From assembly GCA_022072615.1 (NCBI GenBank), contig JAJVHS010000026.1:1-64000 (forward strand): 64,000 bases of DNA, written 5' to 3'. Positions 95-40,022 of this stretch are shown here, piece by piece. How positions within the stretch are numbered: position 1 is the first letter of the stretch; each line of letters opens with the position of its first letter. The translations under genes and the position numbers were made by a program. Source of the stretch: Phycisphaerales bacterium. GTDB taxonomy: Bacteria > Planctomycetota > Phycisphaerae > Phycisphaerales > UBA1924. The notes beneath the pieces were generated by a model. It was given only the letters and a program-made list of their open reading frames with translations. It was not told where the DNA came from and ran no database searches.

Positions 95-982
95 GTGATG
101 GATGATCGCGCCGATCTCGCCATGCTGCTCGAAGACATCACGCAGTTGCGCGAGCGCGTCGACATCGTCCTGGTGGCATTGCATTGGGGGGTGATCTGGG
201 TGCCGCGGGTGATCGCGGACTACATCCAGATGCTCGACAGTCAGAGCAGCAGCAATCCCGGCCGTGCTCTGTCCAAGCCCACCCGCAAAGTCCACCTCGC
301 GGCCATCCGTCTGTTTCTGGACTACTGCGTCCAGCGGCACGCGATCATCCTGAACCCTGCCCTGTCCGTTCGGGGTCCGCGTCACTCGGTGACCGAGGGC
401 AAGACGCCCGCCATCGACCCACGCGAGGCGCGGACGCTGCTCGACTCCATCGGAGCTGCTCGCCCGATCGACCTCCGCGACCGTGCCATCATCGCCACGC
501 TCATCTTCACCGCGGCTCGTGTCGGCGCCGTCGCCAAGCTCTCCCGCGGCGACTTCTTCACCGACGGCCGCCAGTTCTACCTCCGCTTTGACGAGAAGGG
601 CGACAAGCAGCGCGTCATCCCCGTTCGGCACGATCTGCAACTCCTCATCGAGCGCTATCTCGGGGAGTGCCCTTCCTCCGACCCGGGCGGACCCGTCTTC
701 CTCACTGCGGCCGGTCGGACCGGGAAGCTGCTCCTCCGCCGCATGAGCGCCAACGACATGCTCCGCATGGTCAAGCGCCGGCTCCTCGCGGCAGGACTCC
801 CTGCGTCCAGCCTGTGCTGCCATTCCTTCCGAGCGGGCACGGCCACCAACCTCCTGGAGCAGGGTGTGGACCCGGCGGAGGTGCAGTACCTCCTGGGCCA
901 CAGCGACCCCCGCACGACGCGGCTCTACGACCGGCGCCAACTGCGCGTGAGCCGCAACATCGTGGAACGAATCGCGGTTTGA
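95..982 (+). CDS. Tyrosine recombinase / phage-type integrase, N-terminus atypical
   Basis: Site-specific DNA recombinase of the tyrosine (XerC/XerD-like) family. From about residue 60 the protein reads as an integrase: a core-binding region (KVHLAAIRLFLDYC, then NPALSVRGPRH and GKTPAI), then the catalytic domain with Arg in TAARVGAVAKL, HSFRAGTA (H-x-x-R), GHSDPRTT and the nucleophile Tyr in TRLYDRRQ. The GTG at 95 is only one possible start: the same frame is open to the left edge of the window. The stretch before about residue 50 does not look like an integrase: codons 2-130 read like a ThiE core (LQIRHKG, DRADLA) and residues 18-40 like a CapA-family strand (VALHWGV). The gene may therefore be a 5'-truncated integrase fused to foreign codons. 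The C-terminal recombinase call is firm; the start is not. Confidence 0.8.
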   Translation: MMDDRADLAMLLEDITQLRERVDIVLVALHWGVIWVPRVIADYIQMLDSQSSSNPGRALSKPTRKVHLAAIRLFLDYCVQRHAIILNPALSVRGPRHSVTEGKTPAIDPREARTLLDSIGAARPIDLRDRAIIATLIFTAARVGAVAKLSRGDFFTDGRQFYLRFDEKGDKQRVIPVRHDLQLLIERYLGECPSSDPGGPVFLTAAGRTGKLLLRRMSANDMLRMVKRRLLAAGLPASSLCCHSFRAGTATNLLEQGVDPAEVQYLLGHSDPRTTRLYDRRQLRVSRNIVERIAV

Positions 983-1117
983 GGCGAGCCCGCTCGCGGC
1001 CGCCGCCCCCACTTGCAAACGGCACGTGTTCCGTGCTTTGGTCCACAACGACCAATAGGACCGGTGGCATTTCACGGTTTTCCAAGGTTCTCAAGCCCAT
1101 TTCGAAAGGAGTTCACG

Positions 1118-2167
1118 ATGAAGCAGGCACTCACCCGTGCCAGTCAGGAGCTGTTCCGCCGCACGCCCGACGAGAGTTTCGCAACCCTCGACGACCTGTG
1201 GCAGAACTGCCAGACCCAGCAAGAACGTTCGCGCGACCTGTGGGAGATGCCCGACGACCTCGAAGCGTTCGCCGATGGCGGGAGGCTCGCGCTCCGCATC
1301 GGCGAGGACCGGAAGTTCCGCCTCAACAGTTGGAGCTTCGGCCAGCTGTGCGGCCTCGCGGGGATCAACCGCGACACCATCAACCGCCTCTCGGGTCCGA
1401 CGGCGTCGTCGGTGTTCGCCGAAACGCTGCCTCGGGGCACCAAGCCGCTGCAGGTGTACGCGGCGGACGACCTGGTCCGCTCCGTCCACGGCGCCAGCTA
1501 CACCCGCCTGCACGACATCGAGTTGCTCTCCATCGTGCGGGAGTTCGCCACGGACTTCCAGCCCCCGCAGCAAGCTGGGGGGGCGGGCGGCGGCGAAGCC
1601 CGCGGCGGTACCGGGCTCTATCGGGGCGAGCAGGACATGTTCTGCTTCCTGATCGACCCGACCGGCTGGACCGAGATCAACGGCGAGGCTTTCGCACCGG
1701 GGTTCTTCCTCTGGAACTCTGAGGTGGGCAAGCGGTCGGTGGGCATCCAGACGTTCTGGTTCCAGGCCGTGTGCCAGAACCACATCGTCTGGGACGCGGT
1801 CGAGGTCATCGACTTCAGCCGCAAGCACACGGCCAACGTCCGCGACGCTCTCCGCGACATCCGCGCGCTGATCCACGAGTTGGTGGAGCGTCGGGACGTC
1901 CGGCGACACGGATTCGTCGAGGTCATCAAGAAGGCGATGAACACGACGCTTGGCACCGAGGACGAGGACGTGCTGAAGGCGCTCGGCATCCACGGCGTGG
2001 GCAAAGCTCTCGCCAAGGAGGCCCTGGAGATCGCCCGTCGGAACGGACGGTTCACCATCTTCGCCCTCGTGGACGCGATCACCCGCATCGGGGCCCGCGC
2101 CACCAACGCAGGCGACAGGGTGGAGATCGACGCCGCGGCGGGGCCGCTGCTGGCGTCCGTTGCCTGA
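1118..2167 (+). CDS. DUF932 family phage/plasmid-like protein
   Basis: About 349 residues of the DUF932 family, commonly found on phages, plasmids and integrative elements; biochemical role unknown. The N-terminus (RTPDESFATLDDLW) and the WSFGQLCGLAG segment are characteristic of planctomycete members. I chose the ATG at 1118 because AAAGGAG lies 6-7 bases upstream; the frame stays open further 5' to 1013 but without a ribosome binding site. A glycine-rich stretch near residue 155 (QQAGGAGGGEARGG) may be a flexible linker. The last residues (DRVEIDAAAGPLLASVA) recur in a second, orphan copy at 2613-2672. Confidence 0.8.
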   Translation: MKQALTRASQELFRRTPDESFATLDDLWQNCQTQQERSRDLWEMPDDLEAFADGGRLALRIGEDRKFRLNSWSFGQLCGLAGINRDTINRLSGPTASSVFAETLPRGTKPLQVYAADDLVRSVHGASYTRLHDIELLSIVREFATDFQPPQQAGGAGGGEARGGTGLYRGEQDMFCFLIDPTGWTEINGEAFAPGFFLWNSEVGKRSVGIQTFWFQAVCQNHIVWDAVEVIDFSRKHTANVRDALRDIRALIHELVERRDVRRHGFVEVIKKAMNTTLGTEDEDVLKALGIHGVGKALAKEALEIARRNGRFTIFALVDAITRIGARATNAGDRVEIDAAAGPLLASVA

Positions 2168-2178
2168 TCAAGCCCCAG

Positions 2179-2199
2179 AAGGACCCGCCACCGGTCCTT
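2179..2199 (+). terminator. Terminator-like hairpin after DUF932 gene
   Basis: AAGGACC (2179-2185) pairs perfectly with GGTCCTT (2193-2199) around a 7-base loop and is followed by a short pyrimidine run (CTTC). It lies 12 bases after the stop codon. There is no long T tract, so termination strength is uncertain. A related hairpin (2692-2707) follows the duplicated DUF932 tail. Confidence 0.45.
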
Positions 2200-2304
2200 C
2201 TTCAAGCCGCAACGGATTCCTACACGGACGCTTAGTGCCGACGATGGCTGGTTTCCGAATGCCATTGTCGGAGCCGTACCTCTAGGACGGGGTGGAGATT
2301 CTCC

Positions 2305-2583
2305 GTGATCAGGACCATGACGCCCACGAAGACGTTTAGCCAATGCGAACTACGGGTGCGCAGCGTCGTGACTCGGAACCGCGAGGGTTGGTGTGTAGTG
2401 CTCCATGGCGTCACCACTGACGATGTAGTTGTTGAAACCACGCTCTGTGACCCTATCAGACCCTTTCGATCTCTGGCGGCAGCATACGAGGCGGCATTCC
2501 TGCTCTCCTCCATGATCGAGGAGAATGGCGTCGGTTTGCCCGTTGTGATCGAGAAACCACAGCAACGGAGCCGTGGCACTTGA
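2305..2583 (+). CDS. Small hypothetical protein (92 aa)
   Basis: Short protein of about 92 residues that I do not recognise. The GTG start is supported by GGTGGAG 7-8 bases upstream; an ATG at 2317 is an alternative. The sequence is compact, without membrane segments or cysteine motifs, with an alternating beta pattern in the middle (GWCVVLHGVTTDDVVVETTL) followed by a probable helix (AAAYEAAFLLSSMIEE). It sits between the intact DUF932 gene and the orphan DUF932 tail, so it may be cargo inserted between duplicated segments. Confidence 0.45.
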   Translation: MIRTMTPTKTFSQCELRVRSVVTRNREGWCVVLHGVTTDDVVVETTLCDPIRPFRSLAAAYEAAFLLSSMIEENGVGLPVVIEKPQQRSRGT

Positions 2584-2707
2584 GCAGCGCTTCTGCCACA
2601 GCGATTTCGGACATGGCCGACCGCACGGAGACCGACGCCGTGGCCGGGCCGCTGCTCGCTGCCATCGCCTGAGGGTTGCCACATTCTCTAGGACCCGCCA
2701 CCGGGTC
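2583..2707 (+). pseudogene. Orphan duplicate of the DUF932 gene 3' end
   Basis: In the frame of 2613-2672 the sequence reads MADRTETDAVAGPLLAAIA and stop, closely matching the end of the intact DUF932 protein (GDRVEIDAAAGPLLASVA). After the stop a hairpin (GACCCG 2692-2697 with CGGGTC 2702-2707) repeats the GGACCCGCCACCGG element that follows the intact gene. The rest of the gene is missing. This is best read as the remnant of a second DUF932 copy, or of a recombination between two copies that left the 92-aa ORF between the tails. Confidence 0.6.
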
Positions 2708-2765
2708 TCGTTCAGCCGAACCCCGTTCATACTCCGTACCTATAGCATTTGCGATACGACTGTAC

Positions 2766-2782
2766 TTCGTCACGGACACGAA
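2766..2782 (+). promoter_or_regulatory. Inverted repeat before the XRE-helicase gene (candidate operator)
   Basis: TTCGT (2766-2770) and ACGAA (2778-2782) form an inverted repeat with a 7-base spacer, overlapping a possible -10 hexamer TACACT (2783-2788). The downstream gene begins with an XRE-type DNA-binding domain, so autoregulation is a reasonable guess. No direct evidence. Confidence 0.3.
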
Positions 2783-2827
2783 TACACTGTGTTCATGGTC
2801 TCCAGTCGCAGTATCGCACGCGACAGT

Positions 2828-3718
2828 ATGAACGACGCCGTTTTCGCGGCCCGGCTGCGTGACCTGCGCGGGCGACTCGGTCTGACACAAGTCAAGATGG
2901 CCGAGTTGCTGGGAACATCCTTCGCATCGATCAACCGCTGGGAGAATGGCCAACGCCCCTCCAGAATGGCTTGGGACCTCCTGTGCCGCGCTGAAGAGCG
3001 ATACGGAGCGGCAGAAGGTCGCATCGCGATCGAGTCTGGCGCCGCGGCTTCCACCATACCGCCATCGGTCGATTTCCTGGCCCCAGCCGAGGAAGTCCGC
3101 TTGGTCACCGAGGCTGAGCGGCTGTCTTTTGGGCATCTCGCCAACCCAGCCTTCGCGACCGAAGTCTCGCTCATCGATCCTCTCCCGCACCAGCGAATCG
3201 CGGTGTACGAGCACCTCCTCCGGCAGCCACGGCTGCGCTTCCTCCTCGCGGATGATGCCGGTGCCGGGAAGACAATCATGGCGGGGTTGTACGTCCGTGA
3301 GATGCTCGCCCGTCGTCTGATTCGACGCGTGCTCATCATTCCGCCGGCGGGCTTGGTCGGGAACTGGGAGCGAGAACTCCGCACGCTTTTCAGTTTGGAC
3401 TTCCGGATCGTCCGTGGCAGCGACATGCGAGCCAGCAACCCGTTCGTCGGCACGGACGGTGCTCGCGTCATCTGCAGCGTTGACACCCTTCGCCAAGACC
3501 AGGCATTCGCCCGGCTTCAAGATGCGGCGGTGGAGCCGTATGACCTGGTGGTCTTCGACGAAGCCCACAAGCTCTCGGCCGACCGGGAACCCGACCTCAC
3601 GATCCGCAAGACCGACCGCTACAGACTGGCCGAGGCACTCGCCGGAGTGCTTCATCGTGACGGGAAAACTCCCGTCGCCGCTTTCGTGCTCGCTGTGTGC
3701 GCCCGGCACCACCCGTAG
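2828..3718 (+). pseudogene. XRE-HTH fused to SNF2-type helicase (DISARM DrmD-like), truncated
   Basis: The N-terminal 55 residues are an XRE helix-turn-helix (LGLTQVKMAELLGTSFASIN). Next comes an SNF2/DEAD-like ATPase N-lobe with Walker A GAGKT (residues 145-149), a motif Ia-like VLIIPPAGLVGNWERE and Walker B DEAH (244-247), then RKTDRYRLAEALAG. This arrangement resembles DrmD-type helicases of DISARM phage-defence systems, which run to about 1000 residues. Similarity stops at about residue 273; the last 23 codons (HRDGKTPVAAF onward) are antisense to group II intron sequence and the remaining helicase motifs are absent downstream. The gene is therefore broken at about position 3650. The start could also be ATG 2795. 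The DrmD assignment is inference; the helicase call and the truncation are clear. Confidence 0.75.
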
Positions 3719-4740
3719 CGCAGCGAACGACCCCGCCACTGCCTTGCAGCGGCGTCGCCGGACTCCCGTCCGGTCCTACTTGCGGCACTCTCCCAGGCTC
3801 CAGCGTTTGAATCACCCTGGCGACCAGCCAGGGCACCGGGAACCATCCCGGCCGCATAAGCCCTTCCCGAGTTAGTGATGCACTCCGTCCGAACGGTCAC
3901 GTCGCTTGGAGGCTGACCTCCGGCCTGTTGTCGTACGTCCGCCCTCCCGGGCGGCGCAGTTTCCGCGAGGATGGGCCCTTCGCCCGTGCTCGCGATTTCA
4001 GCGGGAAGAAACGAGAAGCGCCCGCTTACCCATCGACAACCGGCTTGAGCGGTTCGGCACCGTCTCCATCCGGACTCACCGGCAAGCCCTTCCCTCGCCC
4101 GTCGGGCGGGTCGGGCCTTTCGTGGTTGAGCTTTTCGCCGTCGAACGACTTGCGTTCGATCGCCGAGCCTGGTTGTGGCCCGGTCGTGTGCGTCGCCGCA
4201 CACGAGCTCCCCACGCCGGCTCAGGTTGAACGGACCGTGCATCGCACGGCCCGGACCCCCTGGGGGGATTTTCACCCGCTTTGTGCATCACGACCCGCGC
4301 TGGTTGAGCCAGCGCCGGGCGTGTCCTCGTCGCCCCGGCTCCTACAGCCTCCGGGAACACCCATCGGATAGAACGCCGGGATTGGACCTTGTGGAGGGAA
4401 CGTCCCTCCAACAGCAAGGCATTACTCCGACGAGCCTCCGTCGAACCGGACGAGCGTGTCTCCACGCATCCGGCTCTACGGGACCACACCGCCGCGGTTG
4501 GTTAGACCGCGCCCTTCGGCCGCTGGTGAGGCGACCTTCCCGGGTGGTGTGGCCCGCCACGATGGCATCAGCACAGCGTTGGCGTGTCTGACAGCCGCGG
4601 CGTTCCCGCCGCTAGGCGTCGATCTTTACCGTACCGGCTCCGGGGAACAAGCCGACCGCGGCCAACCCGCTCCCGCTGTGAGTCACGCTGAAACGGCCTG
4701 AGACTTCAACCAGCCCGAAACCCAAGCGGGCGGGGAACTA
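3651..4740 (-). mobile_element. ORF-less, apparently rearranged group II intron sequence
   Basis: About 1.1 kb with no credible protein, dense in strong hairpins, ending where the truncated helicase begins. On the minus strand 4443-4476 is a textbook domain V. Downstream of it on the same strand (about 4300 to 3655) is a second structured block that looks like intron domain I: an 8-bp stem with a GCGA tetraloop around 4186-4205, a GGGTGAAAATCCC element around 4255-4275, GTAGGACCGGACGGG around 3765-3780, and the perfect stem GACGGGA/TCCCGTC at 3659-3676. Domain I belongs upstream of domain V, so the 3' part of one intron seems to precede the 5' part of another. No reverse transcriptase ORF remains. 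The domain V is firm; the domain I reading and the outer boundaries are approximate. Confidence 0.6.
4443..4476 (-). ncRNA. Group II intron domain V hairpin
   Basis: Exactly 34 nt on the minus strand, the canonical domain V length. It starts GAGCCGG with the AGC catalytic triad, has a GAGA (GNRA) tetraloop, the two-base bulge within CTCGT, and closes with CCGGTTC. Relative to the usual consensus the changes are compensatory: a U-A pair becomes G-C next to the triad helix, and the pairs flanking the loop become TG/CA. Such covariation makes a chance match very unlikely. Domain V is the catalytic core of group II introns. Confidence 0.88.
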
Positions 4741-4791
4741 CCGTGGCATGGAATGCGTACACAGCATACAGTGCTAACAAGGAGTCCACTC

Positions 4792-5187
4792 ATGGCGAAT
4801 CACCCCGCCCAACCCACGCCCCAACCCATCGGCGATGCCCTTCGCCAGAAACGGATCGAGGTTCTCGGCAAGGGCCTCCGCGAAATGGCGGCGATCCTGG
4901 ACATCACCCCCGCACACCTGACCGACGTCGAGAAGGGCCGGAGGACTCCCTCGGAGGCCCTCCTTACGAGAATCTCGGAGCAGTACCAAGTTGACGCAGC
5001 GACGCTTCATTCGGGATGGAAGAAGCTGGACGAGGGTGCAAAGAGGATCATCACCAAGACCCCAACCACGGCGGAGAAAGCCCCCGCGCTACTCCGCGCT
5101 GCCGAGGAGCTCTCGTCCGATCAGTGGGATGCGCTGATCAGCCGAGCGAAGCAACTCGCGAAGGAGAGTCGAGGGAAGAAGAAATGA
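4792..5187 (+). CDS. XRE-family transcriptional regulator
   Basis: DNA-binding regulator of 131 residues. The helix-turn-helix spans roughly residues 15-70 (GLREMAAILDITPAHLTDVEKGRRTPSEAL), a lambda-Cro/C1-type fold. The ATG at 4792 is preceded by AAGGAG seven bases upstream. Its stop overlaps the next start by four bases (ATGA), so it is translationally coupled to the ImmA-like protease. This pairing matches the ImmR/ImmA and IrrE-type switches on integrative elements, in which the protease cleaves the repressor after DNA damage. That regulatory role is inference from the pairing; the C-terminal half has no recognised domain. Confidence 0.8.
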   Translation: MANHPAQPTPQPIGDALRQKRIEVLGKGLREMAAILDITPAHLTDVEKGRRTPSEALLTRISEQYQVDAATLHSGWKKLDEGAKRIITKTPTTAEKAPALLRAAEELSSDQWDALISRAKQLAKESRGKKK

Positions 5188-5885
5188 CCACCGAACCCGT
5201 CCACCTTTTCGCCGAACCGCGTGACGACCTTCTCGAGGCTGAACTGGCTGCTGCGGCGTGCCTCCACGGGTGCCTTGCCGCCAAGGCCCTTCGTGAGCCT
5301 CCCACGCCAATCCCAGCGGAGCTTTGGGTCGAGAGTCCTCTCGGGTATGACTTCGGCTTTGAGCAGATCCAATCGAACAGGCCGGGCTTCATGACCTGCG
5401 GATATGCCATTCTGGGCATGAAAATCATCCGTATACACCAGGACCTCGCAGACGACGAGGCCAAGGTCCGCTGGACGACCGCCCATGAGGTTGGCCACCA
5501 CGTCCTCCACACACGTCCGACACATCAGCAAGCCCCGGTCTGTTCTTCCGATCCCGGCTGGCGGTACCGAGACATCTGGGAACGCCAGGCCGACCGATTT
5601 GCAGCCGCCTTCCTCATGCCCCCTCACCTGCTGGTCCGGGAGTTCTTCGCTGTCTGCCGCTTGGCAGAATGGGACCCGGAAAACGCGATCATCGACCTCC
5701 TGTCGGATACGCCCCGCGCCACGCACATGTGGACCCACACCGTCATCCCGCACCTTGCCCGCGTCTTTGGCGTGCACGATGCGGGCGTGATCTACCGGCT
5801 CTGCGACCTACGGCTCTTCGACGATGGGCCACTCCTGCTCCCAAAGCACGCCCACCGCATGGGCCTCCTGCAACGAGCCCTCTGA
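5184..5885 (+). CDS. ImmA/IrrE-family metallo-endopeptidase
   Basis: Predicted zinc protease of 233 residues. The catalytic HEVGH is at residues 101-105 (TTAHEVGHHVLH), with a further conserved Glu in WERQADRFAAAFLMP, the usual third-ligand region of this family. The C-terminal half (about 150-233) is an extension without a recognised domain. Translation is coupled to the upstream XRE gene through a 4-base overlap. The likely role is cleavage of the partner repressor to induce the integrated element, as for ImmA of ICEBs1; substrate and trigger are inferred. Confidence 0.82.
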   Translation: MTTEPVHLFAEPRDDLLEAELAAAACLHGCLAAKALREPPTPIPAELWVESPLGYDFGFEQIQSNRPGFMTCGYAILGMKIIRIHQDLADDEAKVRWTTAHEVGHHVLHTRPTHQQAPVCSSDPGWRYRDIWERQADRFAAAFLMPPHLLVREFFAVCRLAEWDPENAIIDLLSDTPRATHMWTHTVIPHLARVFGVHDAGVIYRLCDLRLFDDGPLLLPKHAHRMGLLQRAL

Positions 5886-5950
5886 GGAATCGCGCCACCG
5901 GGAGCGCCGGTTACTGCCGCAAGTTTCCAGCCTTCAGTATGGAGATCACC

Positions 5951-6199
5951 ATGTTGCTCAAACCTGCCACATCGGCGCCCGAACCAGACCCGAAGAAAGG
6001 CACGTTCAATACCCTCGAACTTGCGGCGTTTCTCGGCGTGAGTCGTGCCACGGTGTGCCGAATGAACTCTGCTGGAAAACTGCCCAGACCCATCCGACTG
6101 AATCGGGCCGTGCGGTGGGACCGCTGGACAATCGAAGAATGGGTCAGCGACGGATGCCCCCCCCGTGACAAGTGGGAGGCCGAGCGCGGCCACCGGTAG
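5951..6199 (+). CDS. AlpA-like helix-turn-helix protein, copy 1
   Basis: Small winged-helix DNA-binding protein of 82 residues, of the type used as excisionases or prophage regulators (AlpA/MerR-like HTH_17). Core: FNTLELAAFLGVSRATVCRMN, then the wing motif GKLPRPIRLNRAVRWDR and TIEEWVSDG. Start ATG 5951 has GGAG at 5941-5944; an ATG at 5939 is in frame but lacks such a site. The next gene is a paralogue with nearly the same C-terminal 45 residues, so this is a tandem duplication. Such genes usually sit next to the integrase, as here. Confidence 0.72.
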   Translation: MLLKPATSAPEPDPKKGTFNTLELAAFLGVSRATVCRMNSAGKLPRPIRLNRAVRWDRWTIEEWVSDGCPPRDKWEAERGHR

Positions 6200-6264
6200 A
6201 AACGCCCACAAGGAATCACCAGGCGACTGTTCAAATCGAAGCATCGAGACCAGGAGTCCGTGGG

Positions 6265-6594
6265 ATGAATGCACCTTCCACCAGAACGAGTTCCCTTCCT
6301 TTCCGTCTGCTTGCACGGCCGCTGTCATTAGTCCGGGCCCTTCTCATATCACTCAAGACTGCCATCTCCGGCACTGAGCTTGATCGGCGCAAAGGCACTC
6401 TTACGGCCAACGAGCTCGCTGCGTTTCTCGAGCTGAGCCCCGCCACGCTGTGGCGCCTGCACTCCTCGGGCAAGCTGCCCAGCCCGACCCGATTCAATCG
6501 GGCCGTGCGATGGGACCGCAGGACGATCGAAAAATGGCTCAGCGACGGCCGCCCGCCCCGCGACAAATGGGAAGCCGACCACCCACCCCGGTAG
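6265..6594 (+). CDS. AlpA-like helix-turn-helix protein, copy 2
   Basis: Paralogue of the preceding gene, 109 residues. The DNA-binding part (LTANELAAFLELSPATLWRLH, then RFNRAVRWDR and TIEKWLSDGRPPRDKWEA) aligns with copy 1 over its last 60 residues, while the first 45 residues differ and include a hydrophobic stretch. ATG 6265 follows an AGGAG at about 6252-6256. Probably a regulator or recombination directionality factor for the downstream integrase, whose start lies 30 bases beyond the stop. Confidence 0.7.
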   Translation: MNAPSTRTSSLPFRLLARPLSLVRALLISLKTAISGTELDRRKGTLTANELAAFLELSPATLWRLHSSGKLPSPTRFNRAVRWDRRTIEKWLSDGRPPRDKWEADHPPR

Positions 6595-6624
6595 ACCGCC
6601 CTCGATTCCGCGGAAGGATCCCTC

Positions 6625-8298
6625 ATGCGATTGTTCAAGACCAAATACCGAGACCGCTCCGGTCGCTCCAAGACCGCGCCGAAGTGGTACGTCGAGTTCC
6701 GGGACCAGCGTGACATCACACGAAGGCTCCCCGCCTTCTCCAGCAAGTCCGCCAGCGAGGAGCTGGGCAAGAACCTGGACCGGCTCGTGTCGTACCACGT
6801 CGCCACCGCCGGCCAGACGGACCCGGCCCTCCAGGGATGGCTCGCGGACCTGCCGAAGGCGATCCGCCGCCGCCTTCTGGAGATCGGCCTGATCGACTCG
6901 GAGCGCGCGTCGATGTCCAAGCCGCTCTCGGAGCACGTCGCCGACTTCCGCAAGGCCCTCGAATCGAAGGGCAACACGGCCAAGCACGTCGAGGCCACAT
7001 GCACCCGCATCACGCGGATCTTCGAGGAGTGCCGCTTCACGTTCTGGCCGCAGATCACGGGCACCAAGGTCCAGTCCTTCCTGAACGGACTCCGCGAGGG
7101 CGAGGAGAAGCTCAGCCCGCAAACCTTCAACTACTACCTCGGCTCGCTCAAGTCGTTCTGCCGGTGGATGGTGAAGAACCGCCGAGCCACGACCTCGCCC
7201 GTCTCCCACATCGACCCCCTCAACGTGAAGACCGACAGGCGCCACGACCGGCGGGCGCTCTCGCCCGAAGAGATGCTCTGGCTCCTCAGTGCCACAGCCC
7301 AGGGCGAGCCCCGCTCCAACATGACGGGATTCGAGCGGGCGATGCTCTACCGCGTCGCCATCGAGACCGGCCTCCGGGCCAACGAGATTCGGAGCCTGAC
7401 GACCGCGAGCTTCTCGCTCGACACCGACCCGCCCACCGTGACGGTCTCGGCTGCGTACAGCAAGCACCGCCGAGAAGACGTGCTCCCCATCCGCCCCGCG
7501 CTCGCCCGCGACCTCACCACGTTCTTGGACGGCGGCGAGAAGGGCAAGATGGCGTTCGCGATCCCCAGCGAGTCGCGTGTCGCCGGCATGCTCCGCAAGG
7601 ACCTGGTCGCCGCACGTGAGGCGTGGATCGCCGACGCCACGACCGACGCGGATCGGGAGGAGCGGCGGAAGTCGGAGTTTCTCGTGTACCGCGACTCGGC
7701 CGGCAAGGTCGCCGACTTCCAAGCCCTCCGGCACACGTTCATCACCTGTCTCGCCACCGGCGGCGTGCATCCGAAGACCGCCCAGACACTCGCGAGGCAC
7801 TCGACCATCACGCTGACGATGGACCGCTACTCGCACACGCTCAAGGGCGCCGAGGTCGAGGCGCTCAAGGCCCTGCCCGAGATTCCCACCTCCCGCGCGC
7901 GAACCGCCGACACGAACGGCCGCGTGACAGCGAACGGGCAAAATGTCTTGGCGTCCTGCTTGGCGCAAAACGGGAGTTTTCGTGATTCCGGAGGGGACCG
8001 GGTGAGACCCGAGAACGAGCCCGAAGCCGCCCCAGTCGATAATGCAAAAACGCCTCAAAACACTGGAGATATCGTGCGATCCCATGAGGCGCACAGCGAC
8101 GTAGAATCACCATCGGGCCCGTGGCGGAACGGCAGACGCAGCGGACTTAAAATCCGCTGCCGCGCGAGCGGCGTGTGGGTTCGATTCCCACCGGGCCCAT
8201 TGACGGACGCACGCCCCGATCGTCCTTCCCGGCTGGGTCAATGGCTTGCGGGGGGCCGCGGCTTCACCCACAGGCACATCATGATGTCGTCGCAGTAG
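6625..8298 (+). CDS. Tyrosine-type integrase reading through tRNA-Leu
   Basis: Site-specific integrase of a planctomycete type. N-terminal arm-binding segment with FKTKYRDRSGRSK; core-binding domain about 100-195 (GNTAKHVEATCTRI, LKSFCRWMVKN); catalytic domain about 205-420 with Arg in ETGLRANEIRSL, ALRHTFITCLA (H-x-x-R family box), ARHSTITLTMDRYSH with nucleophile Tyr. ATG 6625 follows GGAAGGA. The conserved domain ends near residue 415 (about 7870), but the frame continues for about 140 more codons through the whole of tRNA-Leu (8115-8199) and into the 3' end of the opposing GNAT gene. The tail therefore includes codons translated from the tRNA (GLKIRC, RFPPGP). That tRNA is the probable integration target. 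Confidence 0.85.
   Translation: MRLFKTKYRDRSGRSKTAPKWYVEFRDQRDITRRLPAFSSKSASEELGKNLDRLVSYHVATAGQTDPALQGWLADLPKAIRRRLLEIGLIDSERASMSKPLSEHVADFRKALESKGNTAKHVEATCTRITRIFEECRFTFWPQITGTKVQSFLNGLREGEEKLSPQTFNYYLGSLKSFCRWMVKNRRATTSPVSHIDPLNVKTDRRHDRRALSPEEMLWLLSATAQGEPRSNMTGFERAMLYRVAIETGLRANEIRSLTTASFSLDTDPPTVTVSAAYSKHRREDVLPIRPALARDLTTFLDGGEKGKMAFAIPSESRVAGMLRKDLVAAREAWIADATTDADREERRKSEFLVYRDSAGKVADFQALRHTFITCLATGGVHPKTAQTLARHSTITLTMDRYSHTLKGAEVEALKALPEIPTSRARTADTNGRVTANGQNVLASCLAQNGSFRDSGGDRVRPENEPEAAPVDNAKTPQNTGDIVRSHEAHSDVESPSGPWRNGRRSGLKIRCRASGVWVRFPPGPLTDARPDRPSRLGQWLAGGRGFTHRHIMMSSQ
8115..8199 (+). tRNA. tRNA-Leu (anticodon TAA)
   Basis: An 85-nt class II tRNA. Acceptor strands GGGCCCG (8115-8121) and CGGGCCC (8192-8198) pair fully, with discriminator A 8199. 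The anticodon stem AGCGGA/TCCGCT carries a loop with TAA at its centre, a long variable arm (GCCGCGCGAGCGGC) is typical for Leu, and the T arm reads GTGGG TTCGATTC CCAC. CCA is not encoded. It lies wholly inside the reading frame of the upstream integrase. Confidence 0.95.
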
Positions 8299-39226: not shown

Positions 39227-40022
39227 CGAGGCTCTCGGCGAAGACGAGCGGCACGTCGGGGAGCTCGATGCGCCCGCGGGGCGCGAGCGCGACCGGCAGC
39301 ACCGCACCGCGATCGATGGCCAGGACGAGCAGCGGCTGGCCGCCGGGCAGGCCCGATCTCATCGGGATCACAAGATCACGCACGACGCGGCCGGATCCGA
39401 AGTCGAACTGCCGGTACACCTGGCGGGCGCCCGGGATGCGGGTCGGAGGGCCGACCGACGCGGGCCCCAGGTGCCGCTCGATTGCTCGCGCGAACTGTTC
39501 TGGAAGTTCTTCTCCGCCGGGCAGGCCCGCGAACGCCGCGGGCGACCCGTGCCGGAGCGGAACTCCGGGCGCGGGGAGCATGAGCGTTCCGGCAAATCCC
39601 GCCGCGATGAGTTGGTCCGCCAGTTCAGCCGGATGCTCGGCGATGAGCTGGTCATCCTGCACGGTCCACTCCGATCCCGCCTCGGCGGCCCCGGCGAGCG
39701 CGAGCCGGGCATCCTGGATGAGCTCGACGAGCCCGGGATGCAGCGGCTCGTCGTGCCAGGCTTGGTGAAGACGGGTGGCGCACGCACGGATCTGCAGGTC
39801 GGCGCGGTCGAGCGCGACCGCCCGCTCACCCTTGCGTGAAAGCCGGTCGACCTCGCCGAGCGCGTGCGTGATGGCCTGCAGCTCGATGATGTCGGGGACG
39901 GCCTTGCGCCACCGCGCCTGCGGGCCCTGGGTCGGGAGCGCGACCGACGCCCGGGCGAACTCGGTCCAGTGCGCGACCAGGGCGGCCCACGTCAGGAACG
40001 CGCTGTCGGGTGTTTCGCTCAC
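39219..40022 (-). CDS. Hypothetical protein (267 aa)
   Basis: I do not recognise this protein. From the GTG at 40022 (SETPDSAFLTWAALVAHW) it is 267 residues, mostly helical in the first 130, with a C-terminal part rich in beta pattern (VVRDLVIPMRSG, PLLVLAIDRGAVLPVAL). No membrane segment or cysteine motif. Its stop overlaps the lipase-like gene's start, so both probably belong to one operon. Confidence 0.55.
   Translation of the reverse strand: MSETPDSAFLTWAALVAHWTEFARASVALPTQGPQARWRKAVPDIIELQAITHALGEVDRLSRKGERAVALDRADLQIRACATRLHQAWHDEPLHPGLVELIQDARLALAGAAEAGSEWTVQDDQLIAEHPAELADQLIAAGFAGTLMLPAPGVPLRHGSPAAFAGLPGGEELPEQFARAIERHLGPASVGPPTRIPGARQVYRQFDFGSGRVVRDLVIPMRSGLPGGQPLLVLAIDRGAVLPVALAPRGRIELPDVPLVFAESLDG

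Follow-up and report, generated by a model that had tools for sequence, protein, structure and literature searches.

The stretch of DNA examined here (64,000 nt of a Phycisphaerales contig, hereafter the window) carries an RNA element of about 895 nt on its minus strand. The Rfam model RF00029 (Intron_gpII) matches positions 4478–4363 of this strand (49.9 bits, E = 8e-7), corresponding to the catalytic-end domains D5 and D6 of a group II intron. These domains precede D1–D4, such that the canonical D1–D6 order of an ordinary group II intron is not found. Instead, the full order is P1-P2-D5-D6-[27-nt linker]-D1-D2-D3-D4, and the splice motifs are internal, with AU at 4364–4363 (3' splice site) and GGGCG from 4335 (5' splice site) flanking the linker. 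A DNA pattern running from D6 through both splice sites and the intervening linker has one match in the window, compared with zero expected by chance. The features of the locus are as follows.

About 4545 to 3651, minus strand: whole element, predicted circularly permuted (CP) group II ribozyme; colinear conservation in 32–37 aligned relatives
4513–4545, minus strand: P1 hairpin region (GGUCGC-loop-GCGGCC); conserved CCCGG..CACCA..GAAGGG block, local fold of -10.2 kcal/mol
4493–4511, minus strand: P2 hairpin, from the fold; loop 4503–4499 (AACCA) pairs with the D2 loop
4443–4476, minus strand: domain V, 34 nt; RF00029 match, 99.6% paired over 14 pairs, of which 10 show compensatory changes
4363–4440, minus strand: domain VI, ending in U4363 before the 3' splice site; compensatory changes in three helices
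4336–4362, minus strand: linker, 27 nt; last six nucleotides (GAGCCG) are IBS1 and covary with EBS1
3870–4335 (3' limit approximate), minus strand: 5' splice site (GGGCGAC) and domain I, with a conserved D1 core
4008–4013, minus strand: EBS1 (CGUUUC) in a D1 terminal loop; covariation with IBS1
3794–3863 (limits approximate), minus strand: domain II, from the consensus fold; loop 3845–3841 pairs with P2
3690–3793 (limits approximate), minus strand: domain III and junction J2/3; conserved blocks GGGAGNGNG, AAGUAG, and GCAAGGCAGU
3655–3676, minus strand: domain IV hairpin (GACGGGAGUUUUCCCGUC); fold of -12.4 kcal/mol, equivalent hairpin in relatives L069 and L070
2798–3664, plus strand: truncated HmaA-like defence helicase with XRE-HTH and SNF2 N-lobe; PADLOC HmaA E = 1.5e-50 (profile positions 68–258 of 1176), HTH_31, SNF2
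4792–5187, plus strand: divergent HTH regulator (XRE/capH-like), the upstream neighbor; HTH_3, weak capH match (E = 0.0012)
5184–5885, plus strand: ImmA/IrrE (M78) peptidase, capP-like; PF06114 4e-10, capP 2.4e-15
6625–8298, plus strand: tyrosine integrase ORF (Phage_integrase) running into tRNA-Leu(UAA) at 8115–8199

Several of these features had been recognized in an earlier note on this DNA. Its reading that domain V comes before domain I agrees with our results: a canonical 34-nt D5 lies exactly at 4476–4443, and 3' of it is a conserved D1 core whose EBS1 loop (4013–4008) covaries with the sequence before the 5' splice site. The limits given in the note need revision. The block that it assigned to domain I (about 4300–3655) does contain most of this domain, but D1 extends from 4335 to about 3870 and the remainder is D2–D4. 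Similarly, of the span proposed for the whole element (3651–4740), the lower end stands, with conserved RNA reaching 3651 just past the D4 hairpin, but the element begins at about 4545 and positions 4740–4546 are unconserved. The note was also correct that a reverse transcriptase (RT) is missing. The ORF/domain scan found no RT ORF within the element, and RVT_1 (PF00078) was not found in the 92%-complete genome.

Comparison with homologous loci indicated extensive conservation and compensatory change. The window RNA matches the consensus at all 177 columns with at least 95% conservation across 36 other copies. The GGGCGAC at the 5' splice site is invariant and also occurs in published CP RNAs, and the candidate branch-point A4369 in D6 is invariant in 33/33 sequences and unpaired in the consensus. 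For the 27 pairs of D5/D6, 98.1% of cells are paired (77.8% in shuffled alignments) and 19 pairs have changed compensatorily on both sides, with a covariation score of 0.576 compared with 0.164 after shuffling. At three variable positions of EBS1–IBS1, 58 of 96 cells are Watson–Crick, compared with a shuffle mean of 29.8 (SD 3.8; 0/10,000 shuffles), and the triple formed by the linker end with 4013–4011 ranks best of 771 column triples. This covariation identifies a putative EBS1–IBS1 pairing that spans the presumed 5' splice site; in the window RNA it comprises five of six pairs, including one G-U, and one C-U mismatch. Between the P2 and D2 loops (4503–4499 with 3841–3845), 115 of 128 cells are Watson–Crick (shuffle mean 78.9; 0/5000), and this pairing gave the best result of the whole covariation scan.

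When 101 related genomes were searched with the element, colinear relatives appeared in other genera, with 79% identity across approximately 870 nt for the best match and 65–68% for others. The permuted-junction pattern matched 47 contigs of species genomes, mostly from Phycisphaerae and other Planctomycetota; cultured carriers among the hits include Tautonia sociabilis and Alienimonas chondri. Single matching MAGs are labelled Acidobacteria, Hydrogenedentota, Thermoleophilia, Armatimonadetes, and others, and these labels may stem from binning errors. L058 and L066, two of the 47 loci, lack all other motifs and any model match and were considered as chance matches. Overall, more than 40 loci, most of them from Planctomycetota, contain the same permuted RNA of approximately 900 nt in colinear alignment, with linkers of 13–36 nt across the pattern loci. 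The pattern had no match in the viral contigs scanned, and a plasmid BLAST search with the window RNA likewise returned no match. Two Phycisphaerae MAGs (L033 and L048) share an identical CP linker and a same-scoring acpG (described below) on contigs of different length, which reflects either recent transfer or overlapping assemblies.

The domain order corresponds to a rare class that has already been described. CP group II ribozymes ('T-large' RNAs) combine this order with GGGCG (5') and NU (3') splice motifs, have circles of 15–86 nt, and lack an IEP (Roth et al., 2021, PMC8637638). The window RNA and its relatives share with them the length of about 900 nt, P1/P2, the short predicted circle, an AcpG-family neighbor in the relatives, and the P2–D2 pseudoknot, a feature described as exclusive to CP group II RNAs (PMC8637638). 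R1, a covariance model built from the new loci only and covering D5-D6-linker-5' splice site, finds the published Polaromonas pPNAP05 RNA (E = 9e-9) and the published Thermus pTT8 RNA (E = 6e-4). It also has matches in two further Thermus plasmids, directly upstream of acpG and divergent to it, although the scores for the Thermus RNAs are modest (20–23 bits). Weaker R1 matches in other Planctomycetota (25–47 bits), which probably include ordinary group II introns, were left uncounted, and one at 39622–39715 of the window (16.7 bits, E = 0.009) was taken as chance. Because R1 finds published CP RNAs and the class features are shared, class membership is supported apart from the reaction. We are therefore highly confident that 4545–3651 is a sequence-intact CP group II ribozyme, whose reaction is assigned by analogy with tested members. 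Judged from sequence, the permuted order is a natural trait of the class rather than damage, and the window copy is a further member, an orphan without acpG on what is probably an integrase-bearing element. Some differences from the published members are present. The article text of PMC8637638 does not name Planctomycetota, the D5 of the window lineage is closer to that of ordinary introns, and acpG lies downstream on the same strand in this lineage but in varied orientations in the published loci.

In the relatives, the partner gene acpG has a consistent position. Flanking sequence of 1.5 kb or more was available for 39 loci, and 34 of these have an AcpG-family gene downstream, always on the same strand. 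Its product is about 230 aa long, and its start lies 0.9–1.7 kb past the 5' splice site in all but L069 and L067. The assignment to this family is based on reciprocal HMM matches and a profile-profile comparison with Thermus AcpG (probability 86%, E = 4.7e-6, 157 colinear columns). In a phylum sample of 392 genomes, all seven acpG-positive genomes also have a strong CP match. In L069, acpG starts 2.9 kb from the 5' splice site and is separated from the CP ribozyme by a Drt8-like defence RT in two pieces (3010–4590), which is convergent with the RNA. The position downstream of the ribozyme may thus be a site for cargo. In another locus, represented by L021:3006–3587 and L067:5505–6086, a deletion joins CP D3/D4 to the middle of acpG and removes the start of this gene, which is a second way in which the cassette breaks. 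The copy in genome G368 was rejected as a second orphan, given that it runs off the contig end and acpG is only apparently missing. Many published CP members also lack acpG, making it a frequent companion rather than a defining feature (PMC8637638). The function of AcpG was unknown in 2021, when it had no homology to any known protein (PMC8637638). Our literature search found no later work on AcpG than Roth et al. (2021), and AcpG has no significant match in Pfam, NCBIfam, or PHROGs.

In the organism's own genome, acpG was not found anywhere. At the position expected for this gene, the truncated helicase abuts D4 and is convergent with the ribozyme. Its alignment to a full-length relative stops at about 3640, placing the cut at approximately 3640–3660, and its C-terminal remainder was not found within the window. 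The element lies antisense to a broken helicase gene that splicing cannot mend, as the earlier note had stated. Homologs of the M78 peptidase occur near several other CP loci; the CapH/CapP-like pair in the window is divergent from the ribozyme. The region 95–8298 appears as an integrase-bearing element near tRNA-Leu(UAA), and a related element with CP RNA plus acpG is found in a same-genus genome (L096:1–5500). Because that genome has a homologous integrase (48% identical), tRNA-Leu, CP RNA, and acpG together, we infer that an integrase-bearing element with defence cargo probably carries the ribozyme, and that here the cargo replaced acpG.

Several other explanations for this locus were considered. 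The earlier note regarded the element as a relic, formed either from two tandem introns that had lost the part between them or by a deletion through an intron's own circular junction. The D6 end does adjoin the D1 start, as at the 3'/5' junction of tandem copies. Nevertheless, the same colinear D5-D6-linker-D1-D2-D3-D4 arrangement recurs in more than 40 loci with IBS1 covarying across the linker, the 5' motif is GGGCG rather than GUGYG, and the P2–D2 pseudoknot is found in CP RNAs only. Moreover, the genome contains neither an ordinary group II D5 nor an RT, and the RF00029 match at this locus is the only one in the genome. Two tandem ordinary introns with a lost middle are thus refuted for the window copy, with a negligible chance of being correct, and the same recurrence argues against a local accident of either kind, together with the covarying D5/D6 and long-range pairs, the retention of every strongly conserved position by the window copy, and a known natural class of the same order whose published members R1 finds. 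The CP class may have originated in an ancient circular-junction event, but this is not the history of the window copy. The window RNA resembles ordinary bacterial group II introns (RF00029) in having D5, D6, a branch A, and EBS1–IBS1; it differs in its permuted order, its internal and reversed splice sites, its lack of an IEP, and its inability to splice flanking exons together.

It is also conceivable that permutation occurred separately in Planctomycetota, producing RNAs that are not homologous to the Thermus/Proteobacteria class. The window D5 passes the RF00029 thresholds whereas the corresponding stretches of pTT8 and pPNAP05 do not, and BLAST detects no nucleotide similarity to published members. 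Given that both groups share the GGGCGAC..GGACA 5' splice motif, the P2–D2 pseudoknot, R1 matches, and an AcpG-family neighbor, we consider this highly improbable. More serious is the possibility that the window copy, although a true member of the class, has been functionless since acpG and the flank were replaced and is intact only because the loss was recent. This explanation is compatible with the class assignment and differs on present function. It is consistent with the missing acpG and with the eroded state of the 79% identical relative (L021/L067), in which a deletion fuses D3/D4 to mid-acpG. Conversely, the retention of all 177 highly conserved positions and of the 3'-terminal D4 hairpin speaks against decay, as does the in vitro activity of published CP RNAs in protein-free reactions (PMC8637638). 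We regard a functionless copy as plausible but less likely than not. Having lost acpG, the window ribozyme may be inert in the cell or may rely on its own fold alone.

For the preferred reading of an intact CP ribozyme, a reaction can be proposed by analogy with tested members. D5-D6 and D1–D4 of the transcript would assemble a normal group II active site, with the linker end held by EBS1 (4013–4008). In the first step, the 2'-OH of A4369 would attack at 4336|4335, the 5' splice site; the 3' end of the linker that is thereby freed would then attack the 3' splice site (4363|4362). By this route, the window RNA should back-splice, yielding an RNA circle of 27 nt together with a branched RNA that links D5-D6 to D1–D4 by a 2'-5' bond. 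Five CP members gave a circle plus a branched RNA in vitro, and processing of CP RNAs was not detected in cells in the published study (Roth et al., 2021, PMC8637638). The same arrangement and predicted products characterize a laboratory construct, a group II intron that was permuted by engineering to yield circular exons (Jarrell 1993, as cited in PMC8637638).

The predicted fold of AcpG provides a possible link to intron-encoded proteins. Two AlphaFold2 models, built with different first sequences and the same alignment members, have pLDDT values of 91.9 and 90.3. For both models the best structural match is the group II intron RT/maturase 8h2h_D (Z = 9.8, over 196 and 194 residues), with further matches to 8t2r, 8t2s, 8fli, and 6me0 and then to other RTs, as well as to Prp8 for the first model. 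Foldseek E-values are modest (about 1e-3). The order of structural elements (helix-strand-helix-helix-hairpin-helix-hairpin-three helices) is compatible with a palm and thumb that lack fingers. At the hairpin equivalent to YADD, the sequence reads YASF, HGRF, LGRR, and similar, such that polymerase activity is unlikely, and the motif A aspartates are absent. Compared with group II RT/maturases and Prp8, AcpG is small (about 230 aa), and its sequence profile has no significant match to those of group II RTs (hhalign E = 0.39, within the range of shuffled profiles, which score as high).

Based on these models, AcpG is probably a maturase-like protein that has lost catalysis and assists the ribozyme. 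We further favor, with moderate confidence, a scenario in which CP ribozymes have their own dedicated maturase. AcpG would be a shrunken group II intron RT that has lost its fingers and catalysis (cf. Prp8), the ribozyme and AcpG would move together, on integrative elements with defence genes, as a ribonucleoprotein cassette that makes circles, and the window copy would be an intact ribozyme without its maturase. The new lead from this locus is the predicted maturase-like fold of AcpG.

Relative to the article text of PMC8637638, the window locus and its relatives extend the CP class to Planctomycetota and other phyla, and a tight ribozyme-acpG gene order is evident in the window's lineage. 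The CP class has no known role. A dead maturase would give AcpG a testable identity and would move the question to binding and activity. If AcpG is indeed a maturase, it would be the second case, beside Prp8, of a dead intron RT retained for a splicing-type RNA. In that case, the window copy would represent a natural experiment, with an intact ribozyme that has been left without its dedicated maturase.
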